In this document: positions 2,576 to 28,016 of the stretch, piece after piece
How the letters are laid out: each line of letters opens with the position of its first letter
Position numbering within the stretch: position 1 is the first letter of the stretch
Program-made: the position numbers and the translations under genes
The notes under the pieces: generated by a model
Told to the model about the DNA's origin: nothing
What the model saw: only the letters and a program-made list of their open reading frames with translations
Database searches by the model: none
Virus record (IMG/VR): IMGVR_UViG_3300025319_000071
Location: 1 to 32,677 of that record
Reading direction: 5' to 3' (one strand)
Source of the DNA: a virus
Length of the DNA: 32,677 bases

Positions 2576-3643
2576 GTGCATGATAAAATGACTTTCATCA
2601 AACATCTTCAACAGATCTATGAGTCACTTGAAACAGAAAGAGTACTTACTTATTTAGATGGTTTTTTGACGGGATTGAAAGATCCCATTCTTCAAAATGA
2701 TACGGAAAGAACAAATGCTTGTGAAGAGATGTTCCAGATGGTGACAACTTCTTTCACTTCTTTTCACACTCTATCTTCAATAGAAAAAGAAATAGCTCAA
2801 TTAATTGATATAGATTCTATTTACGAGCAAAAAAATTATAATAGTCTCCTTAAACAGATTATAAAACATGAATATCTTAATAATTCTTCTGTTTTGAGAT
2901 CAAGTAGTTTAATTGTTCATTTCGTGAATTTCCATAAGAGACTCCGAAATTCTCTTAATCTGAGTAAGAAATATTTGATACCTGAGAAATTTGAAATGAT
3001 CGATGAATCACAAACACTTACTTTACAAATTGAAATGGGATCGTCAACTCTGAGTTTTGACGAAATAGCTCACTTAATTATTGATCTATCCAAGCTGTTT
3101 GAAAACCTCATCGGTTATGCAGGGTTTCAAAATAACGTCAGTACAGATATTGTTATTATTGAATCAGGGAGCTATTTAGAGATTATTGTTCAAATTAATG
3201 AATTAGTTTCTTCAATTGATTGGGGAGCTTTTTTCCAAGCTATTTCTTTTGTTATTGGTACTCCTTGGGCTGCAACAGTAGCTTATTCTGATTGGAAGAA
3301 TAAAAGACTCGATACGAAATTGAAACTGATCCAGCTTGAAAAATTAGAGGAAGAACGTTCTCAAAAAGAGAGTATAGAAAAAAGTGAAAATCTATTGGCA
3401 TCTGCTGATAAACAAAATCCTTATTATCACAAACTTTTAAATTCGTTACCTCATTTACTTAAGGATTATGATTTTATCCCTCTCATTTCAAAAGCTGAAT
3501 TTAAACAATTACTTGAAAAGGCTCAAGAGAAACAAATACAAGAAGCACCCTTAGCAAGGGTTGAATTAATCGAGTCACCTAAAGAATCGGAATCAACAGA
3601 AAGAGAAAAAAAGGAGGAGACAGAAAGTGACAGTGAATCTTGA
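2576..3643 (+). CDS. Unknown early protein with one central membrane segment and a charged tail
   Basis: I chose GTG 2576 because AAGGAG lies six bases before it; the in-frame ATG at 2483 has only a hairpin upstream and would add 31 residues. The product is 355 aa. The N-terminal 140 residues are helical and polar. At about 145-215 comes a beta-rich block ending SGSYLEIIVQINELV. A hydrophobic segment follows at about 216-237 (WGAFFQAISFVIGTPWAATV), then a basic turn WKNKRLDTKLK and a long coiled coil. The last 40 residues are Glu/Lys/Ser-rich and probably disordered. The order beta block ending in GS-x-EI, membrane segment, charged coiled coil resembles many unnamed defence-associated and signalling proteins, but I cannot place it in a family. 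It is co-directional with the SWIM and Rad52-like genes and overlaps the latter by 17 bases, so the two are translationally coupled. Confidence 0.6.
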   Translation: MHDKMTFIKHLQQIYESLETERVLTYLDGFLTGLKDPILQNDTERTNACEEMFQMVTTSFTSFHTLSSIEKEIAQLIDIDSIYEQKNYNSLLKQIIKHEYLNNSSVLRSSSLIVHFVNFHKRLRNSLNLSKKYLIPEKFEMIDESQTLTLQIEMGSSTLSFDEIAHLIIDLSKLFENLIGYAGFQNNVSTDIVIIESGSYLEIIVQINELVSSIDWGAFFQAISFVIGTPWAATVAYSDWKNKRLDTKLKLIQLEKLEEERSQKESIEKSENLLASADKQNPYYHKLLNSLPHLLKDYDFIPLISKAEFKQLLEKAQEKQIQEAPLARVELIESPKESESTEREKKEETESDSES

Positions 3644-4241
3644 GGAGTTAAAAAAAGAAATATCCTACAAGCTGAGGCAGGGACCCGGTGGTAAGCAATA
3701 TGCATACATAGACGCTAGACAGGTTGCCGATTTATTAGACGAAGTAGTGGGTCCAAGTAACTGGAAAGATGAATTCCAATTAATAGGGGAAAACCTTTTC
3801 TGTGGACTCTCCATTAAGATAGATAATGAATGGGTAACAAAGTGGGATGTCGGGACTGAATCTAACATCGAAGAAGAGAAAGGGCAAGCAAGCGACGCAT
3901 TTAAGCGTAGTGCGGTGAAATGGGGAGTGGGAAGGTTTCTCTACTCACTCGATACAAAGAACGGAAACGGACATTCACCAACTCTTAAACAGTCACCTGC
4001 CAAAGAGCATAACCCTAAGCCCGTTGCTGAGAGCAATGGCAAAGAATCTAATGAAGACAAGCTATGTTCCGATAAGCAACGCAAGATGATTTGGGCTTTA
4101 GTCTGTCAACGAGTGGGTAAAGAGAAAGCCAAAGGCTGGTTAAATGATTATTTAAGCATTAAGGAGTTACCTGCCAGAACCGATGAACTGACCTTTAAGC
4201 AAGCAAGCGAACTCATTCAACAGATTCAAGACATGCCCTAA
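3627..4241 (+). CDS. Rad52/22-family single-strand annealing protein
   Basis: A 204-residue recombinase that anneals complementary single strands during phage recombination and replication. It starts at GTG 3627 with AGGAGG nine bases upstream, inside the end of the preceding gene. Residues 14-112 show the Rad52/22 core: G.GGKQYAYIDARQVADLLDEVVGP-NW, then LSIKI..EWVTK.D-G, then the signature E...GQASDAFKRSAVKWGVGRFLYSL. A Pro/Lys/Asn-rich linker (about 113-145) leads to a C-terminal helical region (DKQRKMIWALVCQR to the end) like those that end other phage annealing proteins and may contact SSB. The length is short beside eukaryotic Rad52 but normal for phage members. No exonuclease or SSB gene is in the window. 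Terminator 4276-4299 closes the early operon. Confidence 0.85.
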   Translation: MTVNLEELKKEISYKLRQGPGGKQYAYIDARQVADLLDEVVGPSNWKDEFQLIGENLFCGLSIKIDNEWVTKWDVGTESNIEEEKGQASDAFKRSAVKWGVGRFLYSLDTKNGNGHSPTLKQSPAKEHNPKPVAESNGKESNEDKLCSDKQRKMIWALVCQRVGKEKAKGWLNDYLSIKELPARTDELTFKQASELIQQIQDMP

Positions 4242-8260: not shown

Positions 8261-8401
8261 CTACACTTTATTTGAGTTGCTGATTTGAGATAATATTTTA
8301 TCTCTGATGTGATCGGCGACCGCTTTCATCATGAGCGGCGGTACAGAATTGCCAATTCTGGCTATTCCATTTTCGCTTTCTGCTCTGCGACAAACCAGCA
8401 T
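8261..8401 (-). pseudogene. Remnant of a C5-cytosine DNA methyltransferase (C-terminal motif X)
   Basis: A 46-codon frame from ATG 8401 reads MLVCRRAESENG, then IARIGNSVPPLMMKAVADHI, then RDKILSQISNSNKV. The core RIGNSVPP..M..A.A..I is conserved motif X at the C-terminus of Dcm-type methyltransferases, which closes the AdoMet-binding fold. Motifs I (FAGIG), IV (PC) and the target-recognition domain are absent from the window, so it cannot be an active enzyme. It looks like the end of a methyltransferase gene that once stood between the lysis and accessory genes and was lost by deletion. The small membrane frame at 8362-8472 overlaps its 5' end. There is no clear ribosome site, so translation is uncertain. 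Confidence 0.6.
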
Positions 8402-8472
8402 GTCAGTTTATAGGCAATCAGAGTTAGATAGAAAATGATACCTTGTAAACTAGACTGTTCAATCGGTTCCAC
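8362..8472 (-). CDS. Candidate 36-residue single-pass membrane protein
   Basis: GTG 8472 lies seven bases past the stop of the holin-like gene, with GGGAGAGAG about 11 bases upstream. The peptide is MEPIEQSSLQ, then GIIFYLTLIAYKLTCWFVAE, then QKAKME. It has a short acidic N-terminus, one transmembrane helix (about residues 11-29) and a basic C-terminus. Size, topology and position directly after the holin-like gene fit a second small lysis protein such as a holin partner or pinholin-type peptide. It overlaps the methyltransferase remnant in another frame. It could be chance, since short hydrophobic frames arise easily. Confidence 0.4.
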   Translation of the reverse strand: MEPIEQSSLQGIIFYLTLIAYKLTCWFVAEQKAKME

Positions 8473-8478
8473 CTATTT

Positions 8479-8868
8479 TCACTCTCTCCCTTTTAGATTG
8501 TTGATTTCCGCTGTAAGTCCTAGTATCCCCGATTCCACAGCACTTAATCGGTTATTTTGTTTGCGAAAAATCGCATGTACTTCATTTGCTAGATTGTTGT
8601 GAGGTCGTGCGAAAGACTCGTTAATAAATGATTTCAGGTCATTAAAGTCCTGACGAGATACAGTATTGGGATCTTCAGAAGGCTTGACAACGAGTAAAGT
8701 TAGCTCTTTTAATCGCTCCTCTTCCCTTGCTATACGAGGTTTCCATACCGTTCTCCAGCCAATTTCAGCTACTGTGAGGAAAACGATACCTGAAATAGCC
8801 CCAAAGCTAAATGACACAAGCAATAGAGTCGATAAATCAGCAACAAGATTCAAGATCCATTTGTTCAC
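8479..8868 (-). CDS. Holin-like membrane protein
   Basis: From GTG 8868 (GTGA overlap with the amidase stop) the product is 129 aa; ATG 8886 would add six residues. A hydrophobic segment spans about residues 8-33 (LVADLSTLLLVSFSFGAISG, then IVFLTV), long enough for one membrane span or a tight hairpin. A basic patch (WKPRIAREEERLK) follows, then a soluble helical tail that includes a heptad-like end (AVESGILGLTAEINNLKG). It overlaps the endolysin gene and is transcribed right after it, the usual holin place. Holins of this layout oligomerise in the inner membrane to release the endolysin. The soluble tail is long for a holin, so a spanin-like or virion role cannot be excluded. Confidence 0.55.
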   Translation of the reverse strand: MNKWILNLVADLSTLLLVSFSFGAISGIVFLTVAEIGWRTVWKPRIAREEERLKELTLLVVKPSEDPNTVSRQDFNDLKSFINESFARPHNNLANEVHAIFRKQNNRLSAVESGILGLTAEINNLKGRE

Positions 8869-9521
8869 AAATTGACTTGCACCCATTGCCGCAAAGCCTG
8901 CTCTGTATTGTCTCCGAAAAGATAGCCAGGGCATTGAGTGACAACCTTTCTTCCGAAGTCTGTAAAGCGGTGTCCTGTCACGTGATCCTTAGAGATATTG
9001 TATGTTTTCATTAGATACCTGCAGAGAGCAGCACTGGCTTCACTTTGAGAGCGAGTAAGTTGATCGCCATGCCTTGCCTCGTGTTCGATTCCGATAGAGA
9101 TAGGGTTTATGATGCCGCAATGCCAAGCATTATCTTTATCTTTGACCAATTGATAGATAACACCTGTTTTCAGGATTAAATAGTGTGCGGATACTCCAGA
9201 AACTGGATTACATAGCCAGTTTAAAGCCCCTATTCCGTCGCCAACTGTTTGGTGCAATACAATATAGTCGATCTCATTGATATTGCGATAGGAATAATTA
9301 GGAGATGCAACCCAATTCACTTGAGGTTTCTGGGGCTCACTCTTGCTTGGATTAGGACGTATTGTGAGATTGGGAGCAAGCACTAAGTTGCCAGGCACCT
9401 GAAAGTCCTTAAGCAATTCAGCGAGGGGGAAAGCACCGCCAGTTTTAGGCAATGATCGCACGACTTTACCTTCTCCGTCATTCAATTCAAGTCCGTCTTT
9501 ACACACTCTAACCCATGTCAT
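8865..9521 (-). CDS. N-acetylmuramoyl-L-alanine amidase endolysin (Amidase_2)
   Basis: A 218-residue zinc amidase that cuts the bond between N-acetylmuramic acid and L-alanine in peptidoglycan to lyse the host. Residues about 75-205 form the Amidase_2 (T7 lysozyme/PGRP) fold. Zinc ligands are H90 (VLHQT), H184 (VTGHRFTDFG) and C197 (TQCPGY). The supporting residues are HYLI, AWHCG and IGIEHE. The first 70 residues are a separate Gly/Pro-containing region, perhaps a targeting domain or tail-associated segment. No signal peptide is seen, so export should depend on the holin. The start overlaps the preceding gene by 14 bases and the stop overlaps the holin-like gene. Confidence 0.9.
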   Translation of the reverse strand: MTWVRVCKDGLELNDGEGKVVRSLPKTGGAFPLAELLKDFQVPGNLVLAPNLTIRPNPSKSEPQKPQVNWVASPNYSYRNINEIDYIVLHQTVGDGIGALNWLCNPVSGVSAHYLILKTGVIYQLVKDKDNAWHCGIINPISIGIEHEARHGDQLTRSQSEASAALCRYLMKTYNISKDHVTGHRFTDFGRKVVTQCPGYLFGDNTEQALRQWVQVNL

Positions 9522-9873
9522 GATTGGTTTTTATCCTCTTTAAAATAGATTCATCCATATCAAATTCATGACTTATTTGATCAGAAGAAGGCTGCAAGTC
9601 TTGATTTGATTGATTTTTGTAGTCTGGATTGGCATCTAAAAAACGATAAACGAATTCAACAAAGTTAGGAATAACAACCTCTTTAGCCCATTTGTCCGTT
9701 TTCTCATCTAAAATAGCACCATCACCGATCAAATGATCAGCAAAGTTGTAGGCGTCTTGAGCGAATGTTACCGCTGCTTTGCGTCTCTCAGTACCCGCTG
9801 CTCCCGAAAATTCAACAGAAGCCCACAAAACAGCATCAGAACAGACTTTGAATAGCTTTGATAAATCAAACAT
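9508..9873 (-). CDS. Hypothetical protein in the lysis region
   Basis: I chose ATG 9873 because AAAGGA lies five bases upstream; a longer frame would overlap the protease gene. The product is 121 aa. It is helical, with the pattern GTERRKAAVTFAQDAYNFAD, then HLIGDGAILDEKTDKWAKEV, then VIPNFVEFVYRFLDANPDYK. No membrane segment is present. The R-R-x-A-V and D-x-W-A-K-x-V-x-P arrangement resembles soluble proteins found beside phage holins, but I cannot assign it. It lies between the papain-like protease and the amidase, with short overlaps or spacing, so it is probably co-expressed for lysis or virion entry. Confidence 0.5.
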   Translation of the reverse strand: MFDLSKLFKVCSDAVLWASVEFSGAAGTERRKAAVTFAQDAYNFADHLIGDGAILDEKTDKWAKEVVIPNFVEFVYRFLDANPDYKNQSNQDLQPSSDQISHEFDMDESILKRIKTNHDMG

Positions 9874-9886
9874 AATAATCCTTTCT

Positions 9887-10738
9887 CTATTTGGACAGAT
9901 CAATAAACTGATTGGTATCAATAAACTCTTGACTTAAAGCAGTCCAGACGTCCACGGCAAGCCCGTTTAGAATATAATCGTATGGCAAATAACCATAACC
10001 GTTATAACCCCATTGAGTACCCCAACTATTTTTAAACTTAAGCACACCCTTATTTTTGGACTTTAAAGCCATATTGTCATCGTAACCAACAATATGCACC
10101 GCATGACCACCGATGATGGCTTCCGTTGGCTCTGGATATTGGATACAGCCCGTTCTATTCGTAAAATCACTTTGCAATGATTCATAGCAATTAAATCCAA
10201 AAACCATTGTGATTCCAGATTTTAAGTGCTGTTTCATTATTTGCAATATCTGATCAGGGGTACGATCAGGGGTATCTAATCGGTAGTACCTAATCGGTTG
10301 AAATGACTGAGCGAGTTGATATACAAATGATTCAGGTTCTTTCTCAAAAGCCTCGATTGCATAGGGATAATATTTTTCAGGGGGGACTCCAAAAAATGCT
10401 AAAGCCCCCATCATTGCTCGTAAATAAGCCCCTGTATCCCCGCTCCACTGAAGTAAAGATCGGGTCAATTTGTACAGAAAAAGCTCACTTGCATCAAAGT
10501 CTTTTTTGTGTGCTTTTTTAATCAAGTTTTCTATTAAAGAACAACCAGCGAAAGCAGTACAAGAGCCTAGCTGTAATTGGTTTTTAACAGTTGTACAGCT
10601 CGGACTATTATCACAAGATGATGGTAAATTGGGAATCCAAGCTGATGTTTTCAAAATTAAATTATTGATCTTATAATGATCAGTAGTGTAATCCCTTGCG
10701 TCGCACGGATCGATCATCCAACCCTTTATATTATTCAT
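9887..10738 (-). CDS. Papain-like (C1 family) cysteine protease
   Basis: A 283-residue protein with the whole papain catalytic set in order. The oxyanion Gln is Q54, six residues before the nucleophile C60 in NQLQLGSCTAFAG. The catalytic His is H212 in IGGHAVHIVGYDD, and the Asn is N237 in FKNSWGTQWGYNGYGYLPY, the classic C1 signature. Four to five further cysteines (C42, C48, C66, C184, C198) could form disulfides. It has no signal peptide and only about 45 residues before the core, so there is no full inhibitory prodomain. It is encoded between fibre-associated genes and the amidase. Possible roles are cleavage of virion proteins, degradation of host-surface or cytoplasmic protein during entry, or help in lysis. 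Phage C1 peptidases are uncommon and their substrates unknown to me. Confidence 0.85.
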   Translation of the reverse strand: MNNIKGWMIDPCDARDYTTDHYKINNLILKTSAWIPNLPSSCDNSPSCTTVKNQLQLGSCTAFAGCSLIENLIKKAHKKDFDASELFLYKLTRSLLQWSGDTGAYLRAMMGALAFFGVPPEKYYPYAIEAFEKEPESFVYQLAQSFQPIRYYRLDTPDRTPDQILQIMKQHLKSGITMVFGFNCYESLQSDFTNRTGCIQYPEPTEAIIGGHAVHIVGYDDNMALKSKNKGVLKFKNSWGTQWGYNGYGYLPYDYILNGLAVDVWTALSQEFIDTNQFIDLSK

Positions 10739-11318
10739 GTTTACTCACTCCACCTGATAATTGAAGCGAAATATCACTAAAAATAATATCCATATTGGCT
10801 TTATCATCTGTCATGTTGAGCAATGATTTTTGCCCACCATTCAGCCCCATTGCATCCCTCTCTAAATTCATGCGAAAATAAAATCCTTCTTGTTCTTCAA
10901 GATCTTTTTGAGAATAATTTTCAGGAAATTTTTGTAAATATCCATACAATAGATCAATTTCGAGCTTCAAATCATTGCATAGCTTTAAAAATCGATCATA
11001 TGATAATTCTGTCTCAAGTAATTTAAGATCAATTCTTTCAATCTCGAATTCATTTGTTTCTGATTCTCGCTTGCACTTCATTTCACGAATATTTATATCC
11101 GTCTCTTTGACCCTGAACATATTGTATTTAAAGGCTTCTAACCGTGTATCGAGTTCGATGATGACAGATCGGTACATACGACCCGGCGTGATCTGATTTG
11201 CGATCACAAAATTCTCAATTTGAAATTTAGAAAAACCAAAGGAAATGCTTTTGTACCGTTTTTGATATTCGCTAAAAACTTCATTGAAATATCTATTAAA
11301 TTCAATAATATCGCTCAT
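10731..11318 (-). CDS. Hypothetical helical late protein (possible fibre chaperone)
   Basis: A 195-residue, mostly alpha-helical protein. It has long helices (IEFNRYFNEVFSEYQKRYKS, then INIREMKCKRESETNEFEIE, then LEIDLLYGYLQKFPENYSQK) and a Gly-rich motif near the end (RDAMGLNGGQKSLLNM). No membrane or catalytic motif is visible. It lies directly after the Kelch-like fibre gene with an ATGA overlap. Small helical proteins in that position are commonly fibre-assembly chaperones, so this is my best guess. The family is not recognised. Confidence 0.5.
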   Translation of the reverse strand: MSDIIEFNRYFNEVFSEYQKRYKSISFGFSKFQIENFVIANQITPGRMYRSVIIELDTRLEAFKYNMFRVKETDINIREMKCKRESETNEFEIERIDLKLLETELSYDRFLKLCNDLKLEIDLLYGYLQKFPENYSQKDLEEQEGFYFRMNLERDAMGLNGGQKSLLNMTDDKANMDIIFSDISLQLSGGVSKHE

Positions 11319-12640
11319 TCTTTACCAATACACCCTGTTTTCCTTTTTTGCGGTTGCGTCAGATGTGTATACAGCACCCGCACTACCTCAGTCGAGTGAT
11401 CAAATTCTCTCACTATTGCTGTTATAAAGCCATGTGCAGCATAACCGCCACCGAACCAGTATGATGCCCCCGTTTTGTCAATTGAAGAGCCACCGTACAT
11501 GTCGCTCTCCAAGTTTTTAGTGAGTGTCGCTGTTACTTCGCCTGAGAATGTAAGTGTACCCGTTGTCGATAAGTTAGAACCCACGGAATCATTTGTGCCA
11601 GAATGCGTATAGCCCTTTGTTGTTGAAGACATACTAACTGTTTCACGTCGTGCTGTAATTGTCCCCGCTATAGTCGTTGCGGTATCTGTAGCTCGTTCTA
11701 TGCGTTGAACAGCAGTTGTATGCACAGCTCCTGTATATCCATTTGCAATATACCCGAAAGTACTTGTATTCATTGTTGCAGAATGATTGACGGCTGTTCC
11801 GAGTGTGGTAACGGCACTCGTGAGTACTTCAGCACTTGTGAATTTATCGATTGTATTAATCACTGTATCTGATGCGTTTTCACCGCCCGCAATGTGACCG
11901 ATAGTCGTATTGGAGGAGCTGGCGGCTCTTGCTCTTGCAGAAGCGAGAACAGTCGAAAAAGTGGCGAATGTTTCAGTTGCAAAAGTGAATTTTTTAATAG
12001 TGCTAATCTTGTCAAAGACACTCGTAGTGCCGATCCCATCGTATTTGTAGCCTCCGAATGTGTACCCTTGCGTTGCAAAAGAAATACCTGTACTTTGAGT
12101 GATATTGGTAGCCAGTGTCTCGGATAATAAATAGATCGTTTTTGTTGTGTAATCCAATTTGTCAATGTGACGATATGCAAAACTCGCAACACCTTGAATA
12201 TTAGTCAGATCGTCAACTGTGGTGGGAGCTAGAGTCCCTGTCAACGATCCAATACCGATACCTCCCATGAGATATGCACCTACACCAAGAGTAGATGCGG
12301 CAACAGTTTCAGCCGTTGATCTTATTTTATGAGCAAATCCATATCCGTAAAAAAATGTCCCTGCTCCTGCAAACCCAATCGACAATACCGTTTTGGGAAA
12401 TACAGGGAAGCGATCAATCAAAGTCCCGTTTATAGCACCCGAGGCATAGATCGGGCGATGATTGGCATAAAATGTCACATTGCCTGTCACATTACCCCTG
12501 ATCGTGACAAGATCGTGGTCGTTAGGATCTGTGCTATCTGGACCGACATGGATAGCTGATGGTACAAGTCCCCCAGAATTTCCGATATACAGGGATCCTT
12601 GATTGCCAGAAGCCAGTATTGATGAGCGTCTATAGTCCAT
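11315..12640 (-). CDS. Tail fibre with Kelch-like beta-propeller repeats
   Basis: I chose ATG 12640, which has GGAGG six bases upstream, rather than a frame opening at 12730. The product is about 441 aa. Residues 1-100 are Gly/Ser/Thr-rich with fibre-like turns (LYIGNSGGLVPSAIHVGP). From about 130 to 430 the sequence shows repeated blades of about 50 residues. Each has an ID.F-type strand, Thr/Ala-rich strands, an R or AR pair, and a GY or GG turn (GYIANGYTG, GHIAGGEN, YWFGGGY). That is the pattern of galactose-oxidase/Kelch propellers. It ends with a basic tail RKTGCIGKE. It would be the receptor-binding fibre, downstream of the shorter fibre at 12630 and overlapping it by 11 bases. Thr/Ala bias and repeats make it a fast-evolving host-range gene. 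Confidence 0.65.
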   Translation of the reverse strand: MDYRRSSILASGNQGSLYIGNSGGLVPSAIHVGPDSTDPNDHDLVTIRGNVTGNVTFYANHRPIYASGAINGTLIDRFPVFPKTVLSIGFAGAGTFFYGYGFAHKIRSTAETVAASTLGVGAYLMGGIGIGSLTGTLAPTTVDDLTNIQGVASFAYRHIDKLDYTTKTIYLLSETLATNITQSTGISFATQGYTFGGYKYDGIGTTSVFDKISTIKKFTFATETFATFSTVLASARARAASSSNTTIGHIAGGENASDTVINTIDKFTSAEVLTSAVTTLGTAVNHSATMNTSTFGYIANGYTGAVHTTAVQRIERATDTATTIAGTITARRETVSMSSTTKGYTHSGTNDSVGSNLSTTGTLTFSGEVTATLTKNLESDMYGGSSIDKTGASYWFGGGYAAHGFITAIVREFDHSTEVVRVLYTHLTQPQKRKTGCIGKE

Positions 12641-13271
12641 TGAGTGCCTCCACTTGTGTAAAATCCATAGCTGTTTGGCGATCCTGAACCGATACCCAAT
12701 TAACACCATCGTAATATTCAACAAAGCCAAGAGTTGTATTGAAGATAGTCATACCCTGAATAGCAACAAGAGCGTCTCTTTCAGCCGTTGTGATGGCGGG
12801 TAATGGCAAAGTGACTGTGAGAGCATCTTTGATAACCGTAACCCAAAGATACACATTGTTTTGCCACCAATTAAAAAAGCCATCGGGTGGTTTTTCAGGG
12901 GAGAGCCAGCCTTGCTCTTTTTTAGCCGTTGATGGCTCTTGGATCACTGCCCCTGAACTAATTGCATCGGCACTGGCAGGACTAGAAAGCTCATCATCAG
13001 AAGCATTGCTACGTGTACCATTCGTCACATCAACATAATCCAAAGTGTTATTAACATTGGTGACTGGAAAAGTTCCATTATTGCTTGAATTGGTCGCTCC
13101 TGTAACCACTAAACGATGACCAATGGTAACGCTTGAGAGATCAGGAGAGCCACTGAAAAAATAACGAATTGTACTTCCAGACTGCCACACAATATCAGAG
13201 ACATTAAGCCCTGTCTCGATTGTAGAACCTATATCAGTGGCCCAAATTGGTAAAGTTGTAGGTAATGGCAT
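12630..13271 (-). CDS. Short tail fibre or baseplate-to-fibre adaptor with a duplicated module
   Basis: A 213-residue protein. ATG 13271 has AGGAG eight bases upstream. Residues 23-102 form a Thr/Asn/Gly-rich beta module (IVWQSGSTIRYFFSGSPDLS, then LVVTGATNSSNNGTF, then DYVDVTNGTRSNAS). A close copy sits in the baseplate J protein at 14653-14892. Residues 115-150 include a WWQNNVYLWVTV segment. The C-terminal 50 residues carry ITTAERDALVAIQGMTIFNTTLGFVEYYDG, cut here as ITTAERDALVAIQGM and FVEYYDGVNW, the usual C-terminal motif of phage fibres that ends in a YYDGTNW-type repeat. It sits directly after the DUF2612-type gene and is probably attached to it. Confidence 0.65.
   Translation of the reverse strand: MPLPTTLPIWATDIGSTIETGLNVSDIVWQSGSTIRYFFSGSPDLSSVTIGHRLVVTGATNSSNNGTFPVTNVNNTLDYVDVTNGTRSNASDDELSSPASADAISSGAVIQEPSTAKKEQGWLSPEKPPDGFFNWWQNNVYLWVTVIKDALTVTLPLPAITTAERDALVAIQGMTIFNTTLGFVEYYDGVNWVSVQDRQTAMDFTQVEALNGL
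12966..13205 (-). repeat. Shared beta module, copy in the fibre gene
   Basis: About 80 codons (residues 23-102 of the 12630-13271 product) with strong protein and visible DNA similarity to 14653-14892. Shared positions include WQ.GSTIRY.F.GSPDLS, VTG.TN.SNNGTF, and NNT.DYVDVTN..RSNA.D. It is a duplicated domain within one operon. Confidence 0.75.
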
Positions 13272-13891: not shown

Positions 13892-15336
13892 GAATTCACC
13901 ATGATATTAGTGGCATCTATATTGGCTCTATCTGTGGCAGCAATGGAGATATTATTGGATGTGGTAGGACTCGGTGAAAGACCTTGCAGGATGACAACCG
14001 TTAAAATACCGGGTATTTCTCCTAAAGCACACACTAAGCGGTGGTTCAAAACATCCTCGCCATTGGTAAGCCCTTCGCCGTAATCAACAAGGGCCTGCTC
14101 AACTAAGTTATCCCCATCTACTGGATAATTGCCGTCAACTGTTAAATTAACGATTAGGTAAATGTCAACCTCAGTAATACGGCTAAATTTGATGTTATAA
14201 CTATTCCCTTGTGAGTCTGTCACTGGTACAGTTTCAGTTCCATATGTTTCAATACCCAAAGGCTTACTTAATTTAATAGCGTTGGCAATATCAGCATCTA
14301 AACCACCTAGCACGATGGATTCAAAGGAGTGGGGAGGTAAGCCATTAATATCTGTTACGGCTGTCCGATTCTCTTGGACATAGACGAATTGCACTCCGGC
14401 CACTTGAGATATAGCGTTTTCTACTGCAATTGATGTTCCTGCCGTTGAAATGACGGTACTATTACCTGCTCTGGTTCTTAGTTCAGAGTCGGTTTCCTCA
14501 TCTCGACCTTCAATAGCCACCGTCAAATTGATAACGCTATTCCATCCAGATAATGGCGTAACGATGATGTTAATAGATCCGATGACAGCACTGAAGTTTC
14601 CTTTATTTTCACTTCGAGCTTGACCCGTAGCCAGTATTTCAGTGTCTTTAATATCAGCAACAGCAGGGCTACCCGTTTCATTATCTGTTGCATTACTCCG
14701 AGCCGTATTGGTGACATCCACATAGTCACTGGTATTATTGACATCAGTAATCGTAAATGTCCCATTGTTGCTTGCATTAGTCGTCCCAGTGACAATAAGC
14801 TGATCACCACTCACAACAGTTGACAAATCAGGGCTACCATTAAAGGAATAGCGAATGGTGCTGCCTATTTGCCATGTAATATTGGCAACATCCAAAGCCG
14901 TAAATAACAAGCCACCAGCTCCGCCAATCAGAACATCCTCAGTCAGTACCCATTGAACATTAGTTGACGATTGACGGGTAATGCTCCCAGTTAATATCGT
15001 AATGGGTGAAAGAGATACGTTACCCAGTGTCAATTCTGAGGTACTGTAAGCTGCTTGAAATCGTTGAATACCAATTAAGCTCACTGCATTATCCAATGCT
15101 ACACCTAAAGCATTATCAGGGAAAAAGTTTATATAAAGGTCTTCTAATAAGTCCCATAGCTCTGACTCCCTGTCAGCCAAGATTCCCACCAGTTTCCTTG
15201 CCAGTGATTTACCCTCATGTTCTGGACCTACTTTAACATCATTACCAAAGACAGCACGAAAATCAGACTCTATTTCTGCTCTTACTTGCGTGGCATCTTT
15301 CTTGATAAAACCTAGCTCAGTCAATCCAAACGTCAT
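13888..15336 (-). CDS. Baseplate J-like wedge protein with inserted module
   Basis: A 482-residue protein of the P2 gpJ / Mu gp47 family, a wedge component that triggers sheath contraction. The N-terminus (EIESDFRAVFGNDVKVGPEH, then ELWDLLEDLYINFFPDNALG, then LDNAVSLIGIQR) is canonical. The middle has the ETDSELRTRAGNSTV motif and AISQVAGVQFVYVQENRT. The C-terminus includes HSFESIVLGGLDADIANAI, PLGIETYG, and a beta domain. Residues 149-228 are an extra module not normally needed, nearly repeated in the fibre gene at 12966-13205. The start is ATG in an ATGA overlap with the gp25-like gene. Confidence 0.85.
   Translation of the reverse strand: MTFGLTELGFIKKDATQVRAEIESDFRAVFGNDVKVGPEHEGKSLARKLVGILADRESELWDLLEDLYINFFPDNALGVALDNAVSLIGIQRFQAAYSTSELTLGNVSLSPITILTGSITRQSSTNVQWVLTEDVLIGGAGGLLFTALDVANITWQIGSTIRYSFNGSPDLSTVVSGDQLIVTGTTNASNNGTFTITDVNNTSDYVDVTNTARSNATDNETGSPAVADIKDTEILATGQARSENKGNFSAVIGSINIIVTPLSGWNSVINLTVAIEGRDEETDSELRTRAGNSTVISTAGTSIAVENAISQVAGVQFVYVQENRTAVTDINGLPPHSFESIVLGGLDADIANAIKLSKPLGIETYGTETVPVTDSQGNSYNIKFSRITEVDIYLIVNLTVDGNYPVDGDNLVEQALVDYGEGLTNGEDVLNHRLVCALGEIPGILTVVILQGLSPSPTTSNNISIAATDRANIDATNIMVNS
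14653..14892 (-). repeat. Shared beta module, copy in baseplate J
   Basis: Codons 149-228 of the baseplate J gene. It matches 12966-13205 along its length (ITWQIGSTIRYSFNGSPDLS, then TNASNNGTFTITDVNNTSDY). It interrupts the baseplate J core between the NVSLSPITI strand and the QARSENKGNFS region. Confidence 0.75.
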
Positions 15337-15680
15337 ACATTCACCTCGATAACCCCTTCTTCTGTATCAGCAATAAAATCAATGGTAAACACACCTGTAT
15401 GTTGATCCGCCTTAGCATTGTATTGATTGATCCCGATGACCCCTTTTGTATCGGATATTTCAGTCCTTATTTCCCTATGCCCTTCTGCTATTCGAGGAGG
15501 TATGGCAAAGAAAGTGCCGTAATAATCAATGCCACGTCTATTATCAAGAAACCACTCCCCACGAAATAGTTTCAGCCTGATTTGCAACTCTTGTCTGATT
15601 TCATCGGCTCCCGTGACTAAAGCCAAATCGCCATCCACAATGGCTATCCCGCCAAGCGAATCTAATTGAATATCACTCAT
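15333..15680 (-). CDS. Baseplate wedge protein, gp25/gpW-like
   Basis: A 115-residue protein from ATG 15680, which has AGGTG seven bases upstream. It follows the T4 gp25/P2 gpW pattern: G.I.IVDGDLALVTGADEIRQELQIRLKLFRGEWFLD, quoted in parts as LALVTGADEIRQELQIRL and FRGEWFLDNRRGIDYYGTFF. E-I-R-T-E-I and a beta end follow. This protein joins the wedge to the inner tube and sheath in contractile tails. Overlaps of 8 bases with the spike gene and 4 with baseplate J fit the usual cluster spike, gp25, J, I. Confidence 0.8.
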   Translation of the reverse strand: MSDIQLDSLGGIAIVDGDLALVTGADEIRQELQIRLKLFRGEWFLDNRRGIDYYGTFFAIPPRIAEGHREIRTEISDTKGVIGINQYNAKADQHTGVFTIDFIADTEEGVIEVNV

Positions 15681-16422
15681 CAATTTTCACCTTCATTGAC
15701 TTAGCTGTTCCGCTTGCAGCGCTGAACCCTAATCCTGTAATGGGATCTTTGCCACCCGCTAAAGGATTGGGCAGTAAGAGGGGAGGAGGGAATGGGTTTA
15801 TATCGCCATGAACATGAGTCCCCATGAATGATTCTAATGCAGTTAACCGAGCCTCTATATTTGTTCCATGCCCCACAGGGATAGACGCATTATGACCTCC
15901 TAACTTAACCTCAGTGGCTTTCATACTGACAACACCCTCTTTATCGATGTGCATTTCAAACTTACCCGATTCATGCCCAATGACCATCTTTTCAGGGTCA
16001 ACATTGGGGATAGGGTCACGTCGGTAAATACTGGCAGGAATCGCCACGGCATCGGATAGACTGTGCTTACGCAAATCTCTTGGCACTATCACTTCTTGAG
16101 TGGTACTCTCTACTAGCTCGTCAATAGATCGATCTAAAAAGAGCAGTAGAACTGAATCACCTCTCTTTAAGGGCAAAGAAATAAAAAAATCGTTTCCTCT
16201 TGGGAAAATAACAGGAACGCTAGAGATAACAGCGTATTTAACTTGTTCAGACTGACCTTCAATGAATTCGTAATTATCAGAGAAGAGCGGCTTTACAGTC
16301 GCCGTCTGTTTATCAGGGTCATAACTTTCAATAAGAGCTGGCATTGATACAAACGTATTCGCCAACGAATAATCAAGTATTCTCGACAGAGCTTCTTGTA
16401 AACTGACTTCACGCTTTGCCAC
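15673..16422 (-). CDS. Membrane-puncturing spike protein, Gp138-like
   Basis: A 249-residue protein. GTG 16422 overlaps the hub stop. Residues about 20-130 form an OB-fold-like domain of the Gp138 N-terminal type (VSMPALIESYDPDKQTATVK, then VIFPRGNDFFISLPLKRGDS, then VLLLFLDRSIDEL). Residues 150-195 are a beta-helix-like segment (HESGKFEMHIDKEGVVSMKA). The motif HVHGD at about 200-204 lies near the C-terminus; in such spikes His residues bind a metal ion at the tip. A Pro-rich PFPPPLLLPNPLAGG stretch and LGFSAASGTAKS follow. It is the central spike that pierces the outer membrane. This favours a Gram-negative host. Confidence 0.8.
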   Translation of the reverse strand: MAKREVSLQEALSRILDYSLANTFVSMPALIESYDPDKQTATVKPLFSDNYEFIEGQSEQVKYAVISSVPVIFPRGNDFFISLPLKRGDSVLLLFLDRSIDELVESTTQEVIVPRDLRKHSLSDAVAIPASIYRRDPIPNVDPEKMVIGHESGKFEMHIDKEGVVSMKATEVKLGGHNASIPVGHGTNIEARLTALESFMGTHVHGDINPFPPPLLLPNPLAGGKDPITGLGFSAASGTAKSMKVKIDE

Positions 16423-17231
16423 TACCCTACTCTCCTAATCGCTTCGATTTCACTATACCAATCATTGCCCATCGTATTGCCCTTGTGTACTATTTTACGG
16501 GCTATGTAATCACCCTCTATTTCACGACTTTTGATTTGGATAATCTTACCGGGATCTAAATCATAACGGAGTAAAGAAAGTATTTTTATTCCTTCCTCTG
16601 TCACTTCAGGAGAACCTATCATTCCCGTATTTGATGTTAACAAGATAGCATTTTGGGAAATAGCCGAATCATTGGGAAGTACATACAATTGACCATTGAG
16701 AATAAACCAGTACAGATTGAATGATTTACAAATAGTATCCATCACTTCTTTAAAATACCCATGTAAGACACTCCCTTTGTTCCATTTAAAGTCCTCTTTG
16801 ATGCCTTGCAATTTGCCTACATCAACACCGACTTTTTTAGCAGCTTCTTGCAAAATACTCCGTTGACTGGTGTCATCTTCAAAAGAAAGAGAAATGACTG
16901 TTCTTTGTTGAGTTAATCCGTCTTTAGCTTCGATCTCACTCACCCATTCGGTATCTTCTTTTATATGACTAACCAGCTCCAGTTCCCCTTTAAAAATGAG
17001 CCCAGAGTTATCTTTGTAACCAGCCTCCAATAGCACAATATTGCCTTTGCGTTGTATTAAACCCCGACTCGTAGGGTTAAGATTGAACATACTTAATTTG
17101 AGCTTATTAGGACTAGAGTCACCTGTCTTAGTTGCATCAAAGGAAATGTCTAAGTTGTTCCATGATTGCCCTGGTAAATTGGCAGGTCCAATAGTCACTT
17201 TATAGACTCGGTCGTAAAGATTAATTGCCAT
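16422..17231 (-). CDS. Baseplate hub protein, gp27/gpD-like
   Basis: From ATG 17231 the product is 269 aa; a TTG two codons earlier would overlap the plug gene further. The protein shows hub strands: YKVTIGPANLPGQSWNNLDI, then FKGELELVSHIKEDTEWVSE, then IEAKDGLTQQRTVISLSFED. A helical section follows (FKEVMDTICKSFNLYWFILN) and a C-terminal YDLDPGKIIQIKSREIEGDY. These are the landmarks of trimeric hubs that carry the spike below the tube. It lies between the plug and the spike genes, the usual order. Confidence 0.75.
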   Translation of the reverse strand: MAINLYDRVYKVTIGPANLPGQSWNNLDISFDATKTGDSSPNKLKLSMFNLNPTSRGLIQRKGNIVLLEAGYKDNSGLIFKGELELVSHIKEDTEWVSEIEAKDGLTQQRTVISLSFEDDTSQRSILQEAAKKVGVDVGKLQGIKEDFKWNKGSVLHGYFKEVMDTICKSFNLYWFILNGQLYVLPNDSAISQNAILLTSNTGMIGSPEVTEEGIKILSLLRYDLDPGKIIQIKSREIEGDYIARKIVHKGNTMGNDWYSEIEAIRRVG

Positions 17232-25623: not shown

Positions 25624-26436
25624 TTACGGTTGGTTCAGTTCAAGTTGATTGAGTTCGTTGGCGGCTGCACTACCACGGTATTTTGCTCCCGCAGCTACCA
25701 GTGTTGCTACGGTGGGGCTTGTACCAGAAGAAGCTCTTAATTGACCTCTGTTCGTGGGATCAAAATTGGCATACACATCACTGTTCGTATTGGTTGCCTC
25801 GGTAGGCTTTACCCAAAACGTACCTTTTGTAGCGAGATTAACAGCCGATCCTTTTTCATACTTAGCGGTTTCATTTTGGTCAGGTGGCACACGATGCTGA
25901 TGGAGGGCAATCCCTCGTACCTGATGGGTTGTGTCCCTACTAGGTGTTACAGTAGCCTGAGAAACACCCCCAGTAACGACAAAGGCAGTAGCCCCAATTT
26001 CAAGCTGATACCCTTCTTGGGCTGTAATTTGAACCGCACGATTATTAACAGTATCACTCAGTACAACATCAGTAGCAGCAACAGCCGTTGCTAATTCGGT
26101 TTCAATTTCAGACTTTAGGTCATTCATTGTTGTGTCGTGATCTGTATTAAACGGAACTGGTCCAATCGTTTTCTCTGTAAAAGACGTATCATTCAAATGT
26201 TTGTACTTGATGGTACCAGTTAAGCTATTTCCAGTAATAAGATCAGCATTTAAAGTGAGTGTTAAACGATTTTGCAGGAGTTTGAAAACTTCATCTCCTG
26301 CGGCATTTTCGGTGAGCAAATCCCCGAAATTAATATCTTCGGCTGCTTGACGTGTCAGCACTCGCTTATCTGACCAATCGGCACATTGACCGATGTAACC
26401 GAGTTCAGGTGTTCTGGTAGTAGTTAGTTGGGACAT
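25624..26436 (-). CDS. Capsid decoration / head stabilising protein with Ig-like insert
   Basis: A 270-residue protein. ATG 26436 overlaps the previous stop as TAATG, with GGAG upstream. The outer parts (residues 1-55 and 170-270, SQLTTTRTPELGYIGQCADW, then VRGIALHQHRVPP, GSAVNLATKGTFWVKPTEAT, TVATLVAAGAKYRGSAAANE) resemble DUF2190-like cement proteins that sit on the capsid. Residues 56-168 are an inserted Ig-like domain with the same strand pattern as residues 86-173 of the sheath: TGTIKYKHL, FNTDHDTTMNDLKSEI, VQITAQEGY, FVVTGGVSQATVT. The gene lies between scaffold/protease and capsid genes, as expected. Confidence 0.7.
   Translation of the reverse strand: MSQLTTTRTPELGYIGQCADWSDKRVLTRQAAEDINFGDLLTENAAGDEVFKLLQNRLTLTLNADLITGNSLTGTIKYKHLNDTSFTEKTIGPVPFNTDHDTTMNDLKSEIETELATAVAATDVVLSDTVNNRAVQITAQEGYQLEIGATAFVVTGGVSQATVTPSRDTTHQVRGIALHQHRVPPDQNETAKYEKGSAVNLATKGTFWVKPTEATNTNSDVYANFDPTNRGQLRASSGTSPTVATLVAAGAKYRGSAAANELNQLELNQP
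25933..26271 (-). repeat. Ig-like surface domain, copy in decoration protein
   Basis: Codons 56-168 of the decoration gene. The motif order (TLTL...G.I..., D..TT...L...I, ITA, FVVTG...ATVT) matches 22438-22701 in the sheath gene at the protein level, though identity is modest. Confidence 0.5.
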
Positions 26437-27026
26437 TATTCTTTATCTCCTTCTTTGGTAATCATGACAGGTGCTTTACCATAATGGGCTGTTTTTTGCC
26501 ATGCGTTGCCCATAGTTTGGATCATGTCCATGCGGGCATTTGTGATAGAGTCATTTTTGTCACTGGGTTTCCCACCCAATGATTTCAAAGCTCTGTCGTA
26601 ACTATCTGTTCTTTTTTTACCGGGATCAGATGCTTTCGCTCCACTGGCTACTAACTCATACCCAGCATTGATATAAGCATCTTCTTTGTCATCAAATTTC
26701 ATTTCGGGATAAACGCTTTTTAGAACAACCTCTTTGACCTGACGATCTGTTAATCCATCAACAGAATCTTTGACAAAACGACTAGCCGTCTTTTCAAGTG
26801 CCAAGCGCTCCTTTACTAAAGCACCGACATTAACAGAGTCATTTTTTTCCTTAAGTTGTTTGGCTTCCTGTTCTTTCGTATCAAATTTCCCTTGCAGTTC
26901 ACTCACTTTCGTTTTTAAGGCTTCAAGATCGTCTTTATCCTGTTTGACTTTTTCAAGATGAACAGAATAGGCGACTTCAACCGCTTCATCGACATCGAAA
27001 CGGCGACCATTTATTTCAATTGGCAT
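26436..27026 (-). CDS. Nested scaffold protein from an internal start (candidate)
   Basis: Inside the DUF2213 gene, ATG 27024-27026 (codon 331) is preceded by AAAGGAG (27044-27038) with an 11-base spacer. The frame is the same as the long protein, so it would give its C-terminal 196 residues: MPIEINGRRFDVDEAVEVAY, the coiled coil, then a tail ending KAPVMITKEGDKE. This matches the scaffold half exactly and resembles lambda C/Nu3, where an internal start makes the scaffold. The capsid protein here has no built-in scaffold domain, which adds weight. Use of the site is not proven. Confidence 0.5.
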   Translation of the reverse strand: MPIEINGRRFDVDEAVEVAYSVHLEKVKQDKDDLEALKTKVSELQGKFDTKEQEAKQLKEKNDSVNVGALVKERLALEKTASRFVKDSVDGLTDRQVKEVVLKSVYPEMKFDDKEDAYINAGYELVASGAKASDPGKKRTDSYDRALKSLGGKPSDKNDSITNARMDMIQTMGNAWQKTAHYGKAPVMITKEGDKE

Positions 27027-28016
27027 TTTTTTCTTTTCTCCTTTGGTTTCAAAATTATCATCAACTTGATAGGCATCAAAGCGGTATTCGTTAGAATCCA
27101 GATGCACTTTGCAATCTCTTCCAGCTCGTCCTTTGTCAACAAGAGCAAGGTGGTTATATCGAATATTTCTTTGAATGGCATCATAGTGTTTACCATCACG
27201 TGTCACTCCAGAAGTCCATTCCAGATCACATTTGTAGCCACAAGATACCTCTGTCATCTTTTTGCTTTCCATATACTCAATGGCTTCTGAATCTGTAACC
27301 ATCACGGAAGTAGTGACATAGTTATCTTGTTTTCCCACGTCCGAACTAACAAAACCTCGTTGATATTTACGAGTATTTTTAGGGGTTAACATGGTGGGGG
27401 GATGCCCTAATGTAAATGGTTTTTTGGCTAATGTTTTCATGGAATTATCGTCATAGACTTCAGAAGGAGGACGCCATTCTCGTCTAGGTTTCCCTGTCTT
27501 TGAATCGACATAAACAAAGACATCGGAACGAGTCGCAAATACAGGTACTTCCAAATACCCCTCATCCGTTCGTTTCGTTCCATCCATCCTGACCCTACAC
27601 TCACTGATACGAGTTTGAGAGTCCATTTTACGTGATGAGTTAAGTTTCTTTTTGACAGAAGAACTCGCATATTCAAGAACACCACTGGACTCACTTGGGG
27701 TAATTCCATCTTGTAATTCAGCCTCTACAATGCGATCAGCAACAATCGTTCTTCCTTTTGGGTCATCAGAATAGCGAGTAGTAGCGAATTGTGAAAACCT
27801 GACAGCAGCATTACGAAGCCTTTCAAGAGGGGTTAATGGGAAAGCGAGATTGACAGGGTCAGCATAATCTTCTTCATCCTGTGGGAAATCAGCAGGGGGG
27901 GTTAGACGTGCATCTTCTTGGGCTTTAATGCCCCACTTCTTGGCACGTTTGGCTTGAGCTTCCCGCTTTTCGTCACTGGCAGCATCTTTATCGGGTAGTT
28001 GATCGAATCGTGGCAT
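26436..28016 (-). CDS. DUF2213 prohead protease-like protein with scaffold tail
   Basis: A 526-residue protein. ATG 28016 has AGGAG six bases upstream. Residues about 140-320 form the DUF2213 domain: GYLEVPVFATRSDVFVYVDS, KTLAKKPFTLGHPPTMLTP, MTEVSCGYKCDLEWTSGVTR, AIQRNIRYNHLALVDKGRAG. The last resembles the U35-type prohead protease end (H-x-A-L-V-...-G-R). Residues about 345-400 are a coiled coil (LEKVKQDKDDLEALKTKVSE, LQGKFDTKEQEAKQLKEKND). The order protease then scaffold in one chain is common. The first 130 residues are charged and Ala/Pro-rich. An internal start at 27026 could make the scaffold alone. Confidence 0.8.
   Translation of the reverse strand: MPRFDQLPDKDAASDEKREAQAKRAKKWGIKAQEDARLTPPADFPQDEEDYADPVNLAFPLTPLERLRNAAVRFSQFATTRYSDDPKGRTIVADRIVEAELQDGITPSESSGVLEYASSSVKKKLNSSRKMDSQTRISECRVRMDGTKRTDEGYLEVPVFATRSDVFVYVDSKTGKPRREWRPPSEVYDDNSMKTLAKKPFTLGHPPTMLTPKNTRKYQRGFVSSDVGKQDNYVTTSVMVTDSEAIEYMESKKMTEVSCGYKCDLEWTSGVTRDGKHYDAIQRNIRYNHLALVDKGRAGRDCKVHLDSNEYRFDAYQVDDNFETKGEKKKMPIEINGRRFDVDEAVEVAYSVHLEKVKQDKDDLEALKTKVSELQGKFDTKEQEAKQLKEKNDSVNVGALVKERLALEKTASRFVKDSVDGLTDRQVKEVVLKSVYPEMKFDDKEDAYINAGYELVASGAKASDPGKKRTDSYDRALKSLGGKPSDKNDSITNARMDMIQTMGNAWQKTAHYGKAPVMITKEGDKE

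Follow-up and report, generated by a model that had tools for sequence, protein, structure and literature searches.

What does a papain-type cysteine protease do in a tailed phage when its gene lies among the lysis genes? The question is raised by the window, the whole 32.7 kb stretch of DNA analysed here, which is the record of an uncultured contractile-tailed phage. Its late module lies on the minus strand and contains terminase, portal, head protease, major head protein, sheath, tape measure, baseplate hub, and wedge genes. These are followed, in order, by fibre-like genes, a 195-aa gene, the protease, a 121-aa gene, an Amidase_2 endolysin, a membrane protein, and a 36-aa ORF. The early region on the plus strand encodes a DUF2511 protein (934-1497, 1.9e-08) and a Rad52/22-family protein (3627-4241, 1.1e-11). 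In fragments from other samples (L015-L019) the capsid or baseplate protein that was queried has 100% identity to that of the window, so one virus population had been assembled repeatedly. The major capsid protein, used as a search seed, retrieved solely identical fragments from this population, and the 195-aa gene as a seed retrieved no viral relatives.

The protease ORF occupies exactly 9887-10738 on the minus strand, as an earlier sequence-only reading had delimited it, and many stop codons interrupt the plus strand at this position. The 283-aa product matches PF00112 Peptidase_C1 over residues 39-250 (E-value 3.7e-16, 60.3 bits against a gathering score of 20.7), which bears out the papain-type assignment made in that reading. 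Its residue numbering was also right: Q54 (oxyanion), C60, H212, and N237 are invariant across 39 aligned relatives, and the predicted NSWG..WG end is NSWGTQWG (N237-G244). The Q/C/H/N motifs are kept in all 68 non-redundant relatives. Peptidase_C1 models alone matched the window protein, with no I29 propeptide detected, and no NCBIfam model matched it. Searches against Pfam and PHROG found no peptidoglycan-hydrolase or wall-binding domain in it (NlpC/P60 and CHAP were without a match). No structural, receptor-binding, fibre-anchor, or carbohydrate-binding domain was found either, unlike in the relatives L056 and L075. Judged by sequence, the gene is apparently intact and its product is a predicted active protease. 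A Kyte-Doolittle scan detected an N-terminal hydrophobic segment in 0/68 non-redundant relatives, and the window protein has no signal peptide, in agreement with the earlier claim.

The window protein belongs to the short, xylellain-type C1A peptidases. This assignment follows from the profile match to 3ois, the superposition of the model, and a common N-terminal motif. When a profile of the relatives was compared with solved chains, xylellain of Xylella fastidiosa (PDB 3ois) was matched at 3.3e-86 over nearly the whole chain and the next chain at 4e-18. The structure prediction which the sequence-only reading had proposed as a check gave a confident AlphaFold2 model (38 sequences, pLDDT 92.1, pTM 0.91). 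It superposes on 3ois with a Z-score of 31.2 (2.1 A over 245 residues, spanning residues 1-271, 33% identity) and on many cathepsins with Z-scores of 22-24, showing a papain fold. Structure matches among viral proteins carry the names peptidoglycan binding, N-acetylmuramidase, and copper amine oxidase. Papain and the cathepsins (eukaryotic C1A) have the same fold and catalytic tetrad, but the window protein lacks their signal peptide and I29 inhibitory propeptide.

The earlier statement that there is little prodomain is correct in that the catalytic domain begins near residue 37 and I29 is absent. It missed that the preceding segment (residues about 1-36; 10630-10738, minus strand) is conserved and shared with xylellain. 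The segment has the motif GW..D..D.RD, with D13 and D16 invariant and R15 present in at least 90% of the 39 aligned relatives, and the 3ois alignment spans it. In xylellain this segment is said, in work attributed to Leite et al. in 2013, to cover and regulate the active site. Xylellain differs from the window protein in being a bacterial enzyme, while the window gene lies in a phage lysis cluster and its product has a longer C-terminal tail (about 15 residues).

The gene and its family were already known, and the window protein adds a member. A search with five query sequences showed that at least 389 viral stretches encode a relative. Annotated phages with one include THSA-485A, MMB025, FLC9, and the Prevotella Lak phages, and plasmids of Sporomusa, Rhizobium, and Sinorhizobium also have relatives. 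Large phages have one C1 gene each; a tandem pair of C1 peptidase genes was seen on one viral contig (L077, record G037:66290-67809). In 2023, peptidases of the same short xylellain type were reported in Myoviridae and Siphoviridae as independent acquisitions from bacteria (PMC10380794). This kind of enzyme is therefore known in tailed phages, and the sequence-only reading overstated its rarity there. Its passages on these enzymes deal with horizontal transfer and not with their function or with a lysis or fibre setting.

Between 11318 and 8479, neighbouring genes either overlap or leave a gap of 13 nt, and a weak scan of the minus strand from 13.2 to 6.8 kb found no terminator-like sites. Upstream on the same strand are the fibre-like genes (11315-12730 and 12630-13271; phrog_19111, 2.1e-10; phrog_30742 tail fiber, 1.2e-07). 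The 195-aa phrog_1409-like gene (10731-11318, minus strand, 6.9e-17) overlaps the protease start by 8 nt. The 121-aa gene (9508-9873, minus strand) starts 13 nt past the protease stop and is preceded by AGAAAGGA; its product has only weak similarity, to L020 14273-14602. The N-acetylmuramoyl-L-alanine amidase gene (8865-9521, minus strand; PF01510, 8.1e-31; phrog_1493 endolysin, 2.2e-23) overlaps the 121-aa gene by 14 nt. The protease had been described as lying between fibre genes and the amidase; the fibre-to-lysis position is right, but the 121-aa gene intervenes and the neighbours are not adjacent.

The 135-aa membrane protein (8479-8886, minus strand) has one or two TM segments and a charged tail and is a candidate holin or spanin. 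Its LapA_dom-like match (0.003) was under the cut-off, the PHROG search gave no match, and searches of the window's membrane proteins against holin and spanin families left none assignable. Directly after it, the 36-aa ORF (8362-8472, minus strand) was read from the sequence: it has a GTG start, a ribosome-binding-like site upstream, and a hydrophobic segment, and is too short for a family search. It is possibly a small lysis protein.

In two phages with a related baseplate J, a 261-aa protein that has a HEIGH zinc-peptidase-like motif and no Pfam match is encoded between the fibre genes and the lysis-type genes (L020 13466-14251; L101 5151-5936). The L020 protein was ruled out as a C1 homologue (hhalign 0.3%), and unrelated putative peptidases may thus fill the same slot.

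The sequence-only reading would have taken a lack of homologues in other phage late operons, together with a lack of proteolytic activity, as a sign of a captured, inactive gene. Homologues are in fact widespread in the late regions of phages, where some adjoin endolysins or holins and others lie among tail-fibre genes or are fused to them. Thermoanaerobacterium phage THSA-485A has a C1 gene (Tsac_2838) directly adjoining an annotated GH25 endolysin. It was found with the L042 protein as the query (27% identity) and resembles the window gene in being a stand-alone gene beside an endolysin, downstream of the late region; it differs in endolysin type, Bacillota host, remote sequence, and long branch. 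In Alicyclobacillus phage MMB025, one 753-aa endolysin (XXN61434.1) joins a C1 domain from this family, 26% identical to the window protein, to Rv2525c-like glycosidase and PG_binding_1 domains, unlike the stand-alone window protein. C1 genes also adjoin SLT in L049, an M15_3 peptidase in L083, and, by reading, DUF5675 in L072. In L038 a C92 amidase-like gene is two genes away, in L042 the C1 gene is downstream of Amidase_2, and in L044 and L095 it is downstream of LLH holins, with L069 similar in appearance. Contig L115 has a baseplate-J gene in common with the window (41% over part of its length). Here a remotely papain-like protein (14644-16493, hhalign 96.8%) is fused to a Cu_amine_oxidN1 domain, and its gene immediately precedes an Amidase_2 gene that includes an SLH (S-layer homology) domain; its single-sequence structure prediction reached a pLDDT of only 31.5.

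Among the 68 relatives, neighbour reading placed a lysis-type gene within three genes of C1 in about 10 and a tail-fibre gene in about 19; the nearest relatives (L021, L022, L023, L024, L004) have unrelated surroundings. On 50 contigs, the distance from C1 to the nearest of five lysis-enzyme families was compared with a null of uniform placement. The C1 gene was nearer to a lysis enzyme than expected (14 contigs, Fisher P = 0.034; 4/14 within 3 kb), and the terminase control gave P = 0.91 (12 contigs; 0/12 within 3 kb). Two of the lysis matches are long tail-type proteins, and without them P = 0.013, a choice made after the data were seen. Small membrane proteins within two genes of C1 were not enriched (25/188 vs 54/506, P = 0.35), and a holin-like motif scan near C1 genes gave only 2 matches. 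The proximity signal is modest and the set is small. The association with lysis genes, the newer part of the finding, is backed by several separate loci and modest statistics.

The gene, its intact catalytic residues, its fold, the lack of an export signal, its position, and the recurrence beside lysis genes are what the analysis shows. The best explanation, held tentatively, is that the window protein may be a leaderless lysis-stage protease which reaches the envelope with the amidase and cleaves envelope proteins. It would be expressed late from the closely packed cluster and translated together with the amidase, then fold and wait in the cytoplasm. Once the membrane is permeabilised it would gain the envelope as leaderless endolysins do, presumably by holin-dependent release. 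There it would cleave proteins that join the envelope or retain progeny, for example wall- or outer-membrane-linked lipoproteins, S-layer, or phage receptors. The lack of an export signal, the intact site, the amidase cluster, and the linkage or fusion to wall and surface modules suggest that the target is an envelope protein, quite plausibly reached at lysis and less probably from the virion. More doubtful is a widespread, unrecognised proteolytic step in lysis, in which phages of several lineages would supplement the holin/endolysin cassette with a leaderless papain-like protease that cuts envelope proteins beyond the reach of peptidoglycan hydrolases.

The protease could instead be a virion enzyme, which the sequence-only reading had favoured. 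Carried at the fibre or baseplate, it would cleave proteins of the host surface (or process fibres) while the phage adsorbs and enters. The gene does lie just downstream of the fibre-like and phrog_1409-like genes. A clade of 15 T4-like relatives has the C1 gene among tail-fibre genes (neighbour reading and PHROG tally), and C1 is fused to Laminin_G_3 in L056 and to collagen repeats in L075 and carries an N-terminal extension in the fibre cluster of L084. In L002 (5723-6478) a fatty-acid-desaturase-like ORF was read directly 3' of C1, among tail-fibre genes. The proposed phylogeny, however, separates the window protein from this group: 15/17 tail-fibre proteins fall into one clade (99/98), the window protein is sister to a Geobacter MAG protein (96/63) on a branch of 1.26 changes per column, and the other viral members of its clade have unrelated neighbours. 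Lysis-type loci occur at scattered points of the tree and do not make up one clade, which counts in favour of the lysis reading; two of them, L117 and L012, have very long branches and an unsure position. The window protein also consists of the catalytic domain alone, lacking both a fibre anchor and a carbohydrate-binding domain, and the amidase is one gene away. Fibre-gene homologues exist, but a virion role for the window protein is unlikely. Since its ORF stands alone, packed with the amidase, and the tail-fibre homologues form a separate T4-like clade, the lysis cluster is a slightly better fit.

Many other homologues have neither a lysis nor a tail-fibre context and are found in variable regions. 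Together with the single copies in large phages, this favours an intracellular protease for host takeover or counter-defence, which would degrade a host defence protein or free amino acids. The lack of a signal peptide means that the protease is made in the cytoplasm and counts for the same role. The window gene, however, is in the late structural and lysis region and not in the early region, and the repeated linkage or fusion to wall-binding and lectin modules implies extracytoplasmic substrates, so this role is rather improbable.

Murein hydrolases belong to NlpC/P60, CHAP, and related families, and to our knowledge no C1A papain is established as one. The papain domain might nevertheless be a peptidoglycan peptidase, a second endolysin cutting stem or cross-bridge peptides. 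The MMB025 fusion, the THSA-485A tandem, and the C1 genes ending holin operons in L044, L069, and L095 are in its favour, as is the finding of 0/5 of the lysis-enzyme families searched on the L044 contig. Since the window protein matches neither NlpC/P60 nor CHAP and the window already has an amidase, such an activity is improbable. It is very improbable that the gene is a functionless passenger captured from a host, as the long branch to its Geobacter MAG sister and the patchy distribution might suggest, given the intact catalytic residues, full-length frame, ribosome-binding-like site, packing with late genes, and conservation over the 68 non-redundant relatives. A head-maturation role was rejected: the slot between portal and major capsid holds another protease (26436-28016, minus strand; phrog_530, 4.2e-86), and with this dedicated head protease in the phage, capsid processing by the C1 enzyme is unlikely.

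Models of lysis are built around holins, peptidoglycan hydrolases, and spanins. Neither papain nor C1 peptidases appear in the main text of a recent survey on viral lytic proteins (PMC12596118), and what xylellain cleaves is, according to PMC12090721, not known. The present results suggest that some phages cut envelope proteins besides the peptidoglycan wall on leaving or entering the cell. If true, a protease that recurs in lysis cassettes would bring proteolysis into lysis models as a further step, give a reason to seek protein barriers at release (S-layers, lipoproteins, receptors), and provide a testable role for xylellain-type enzymes.
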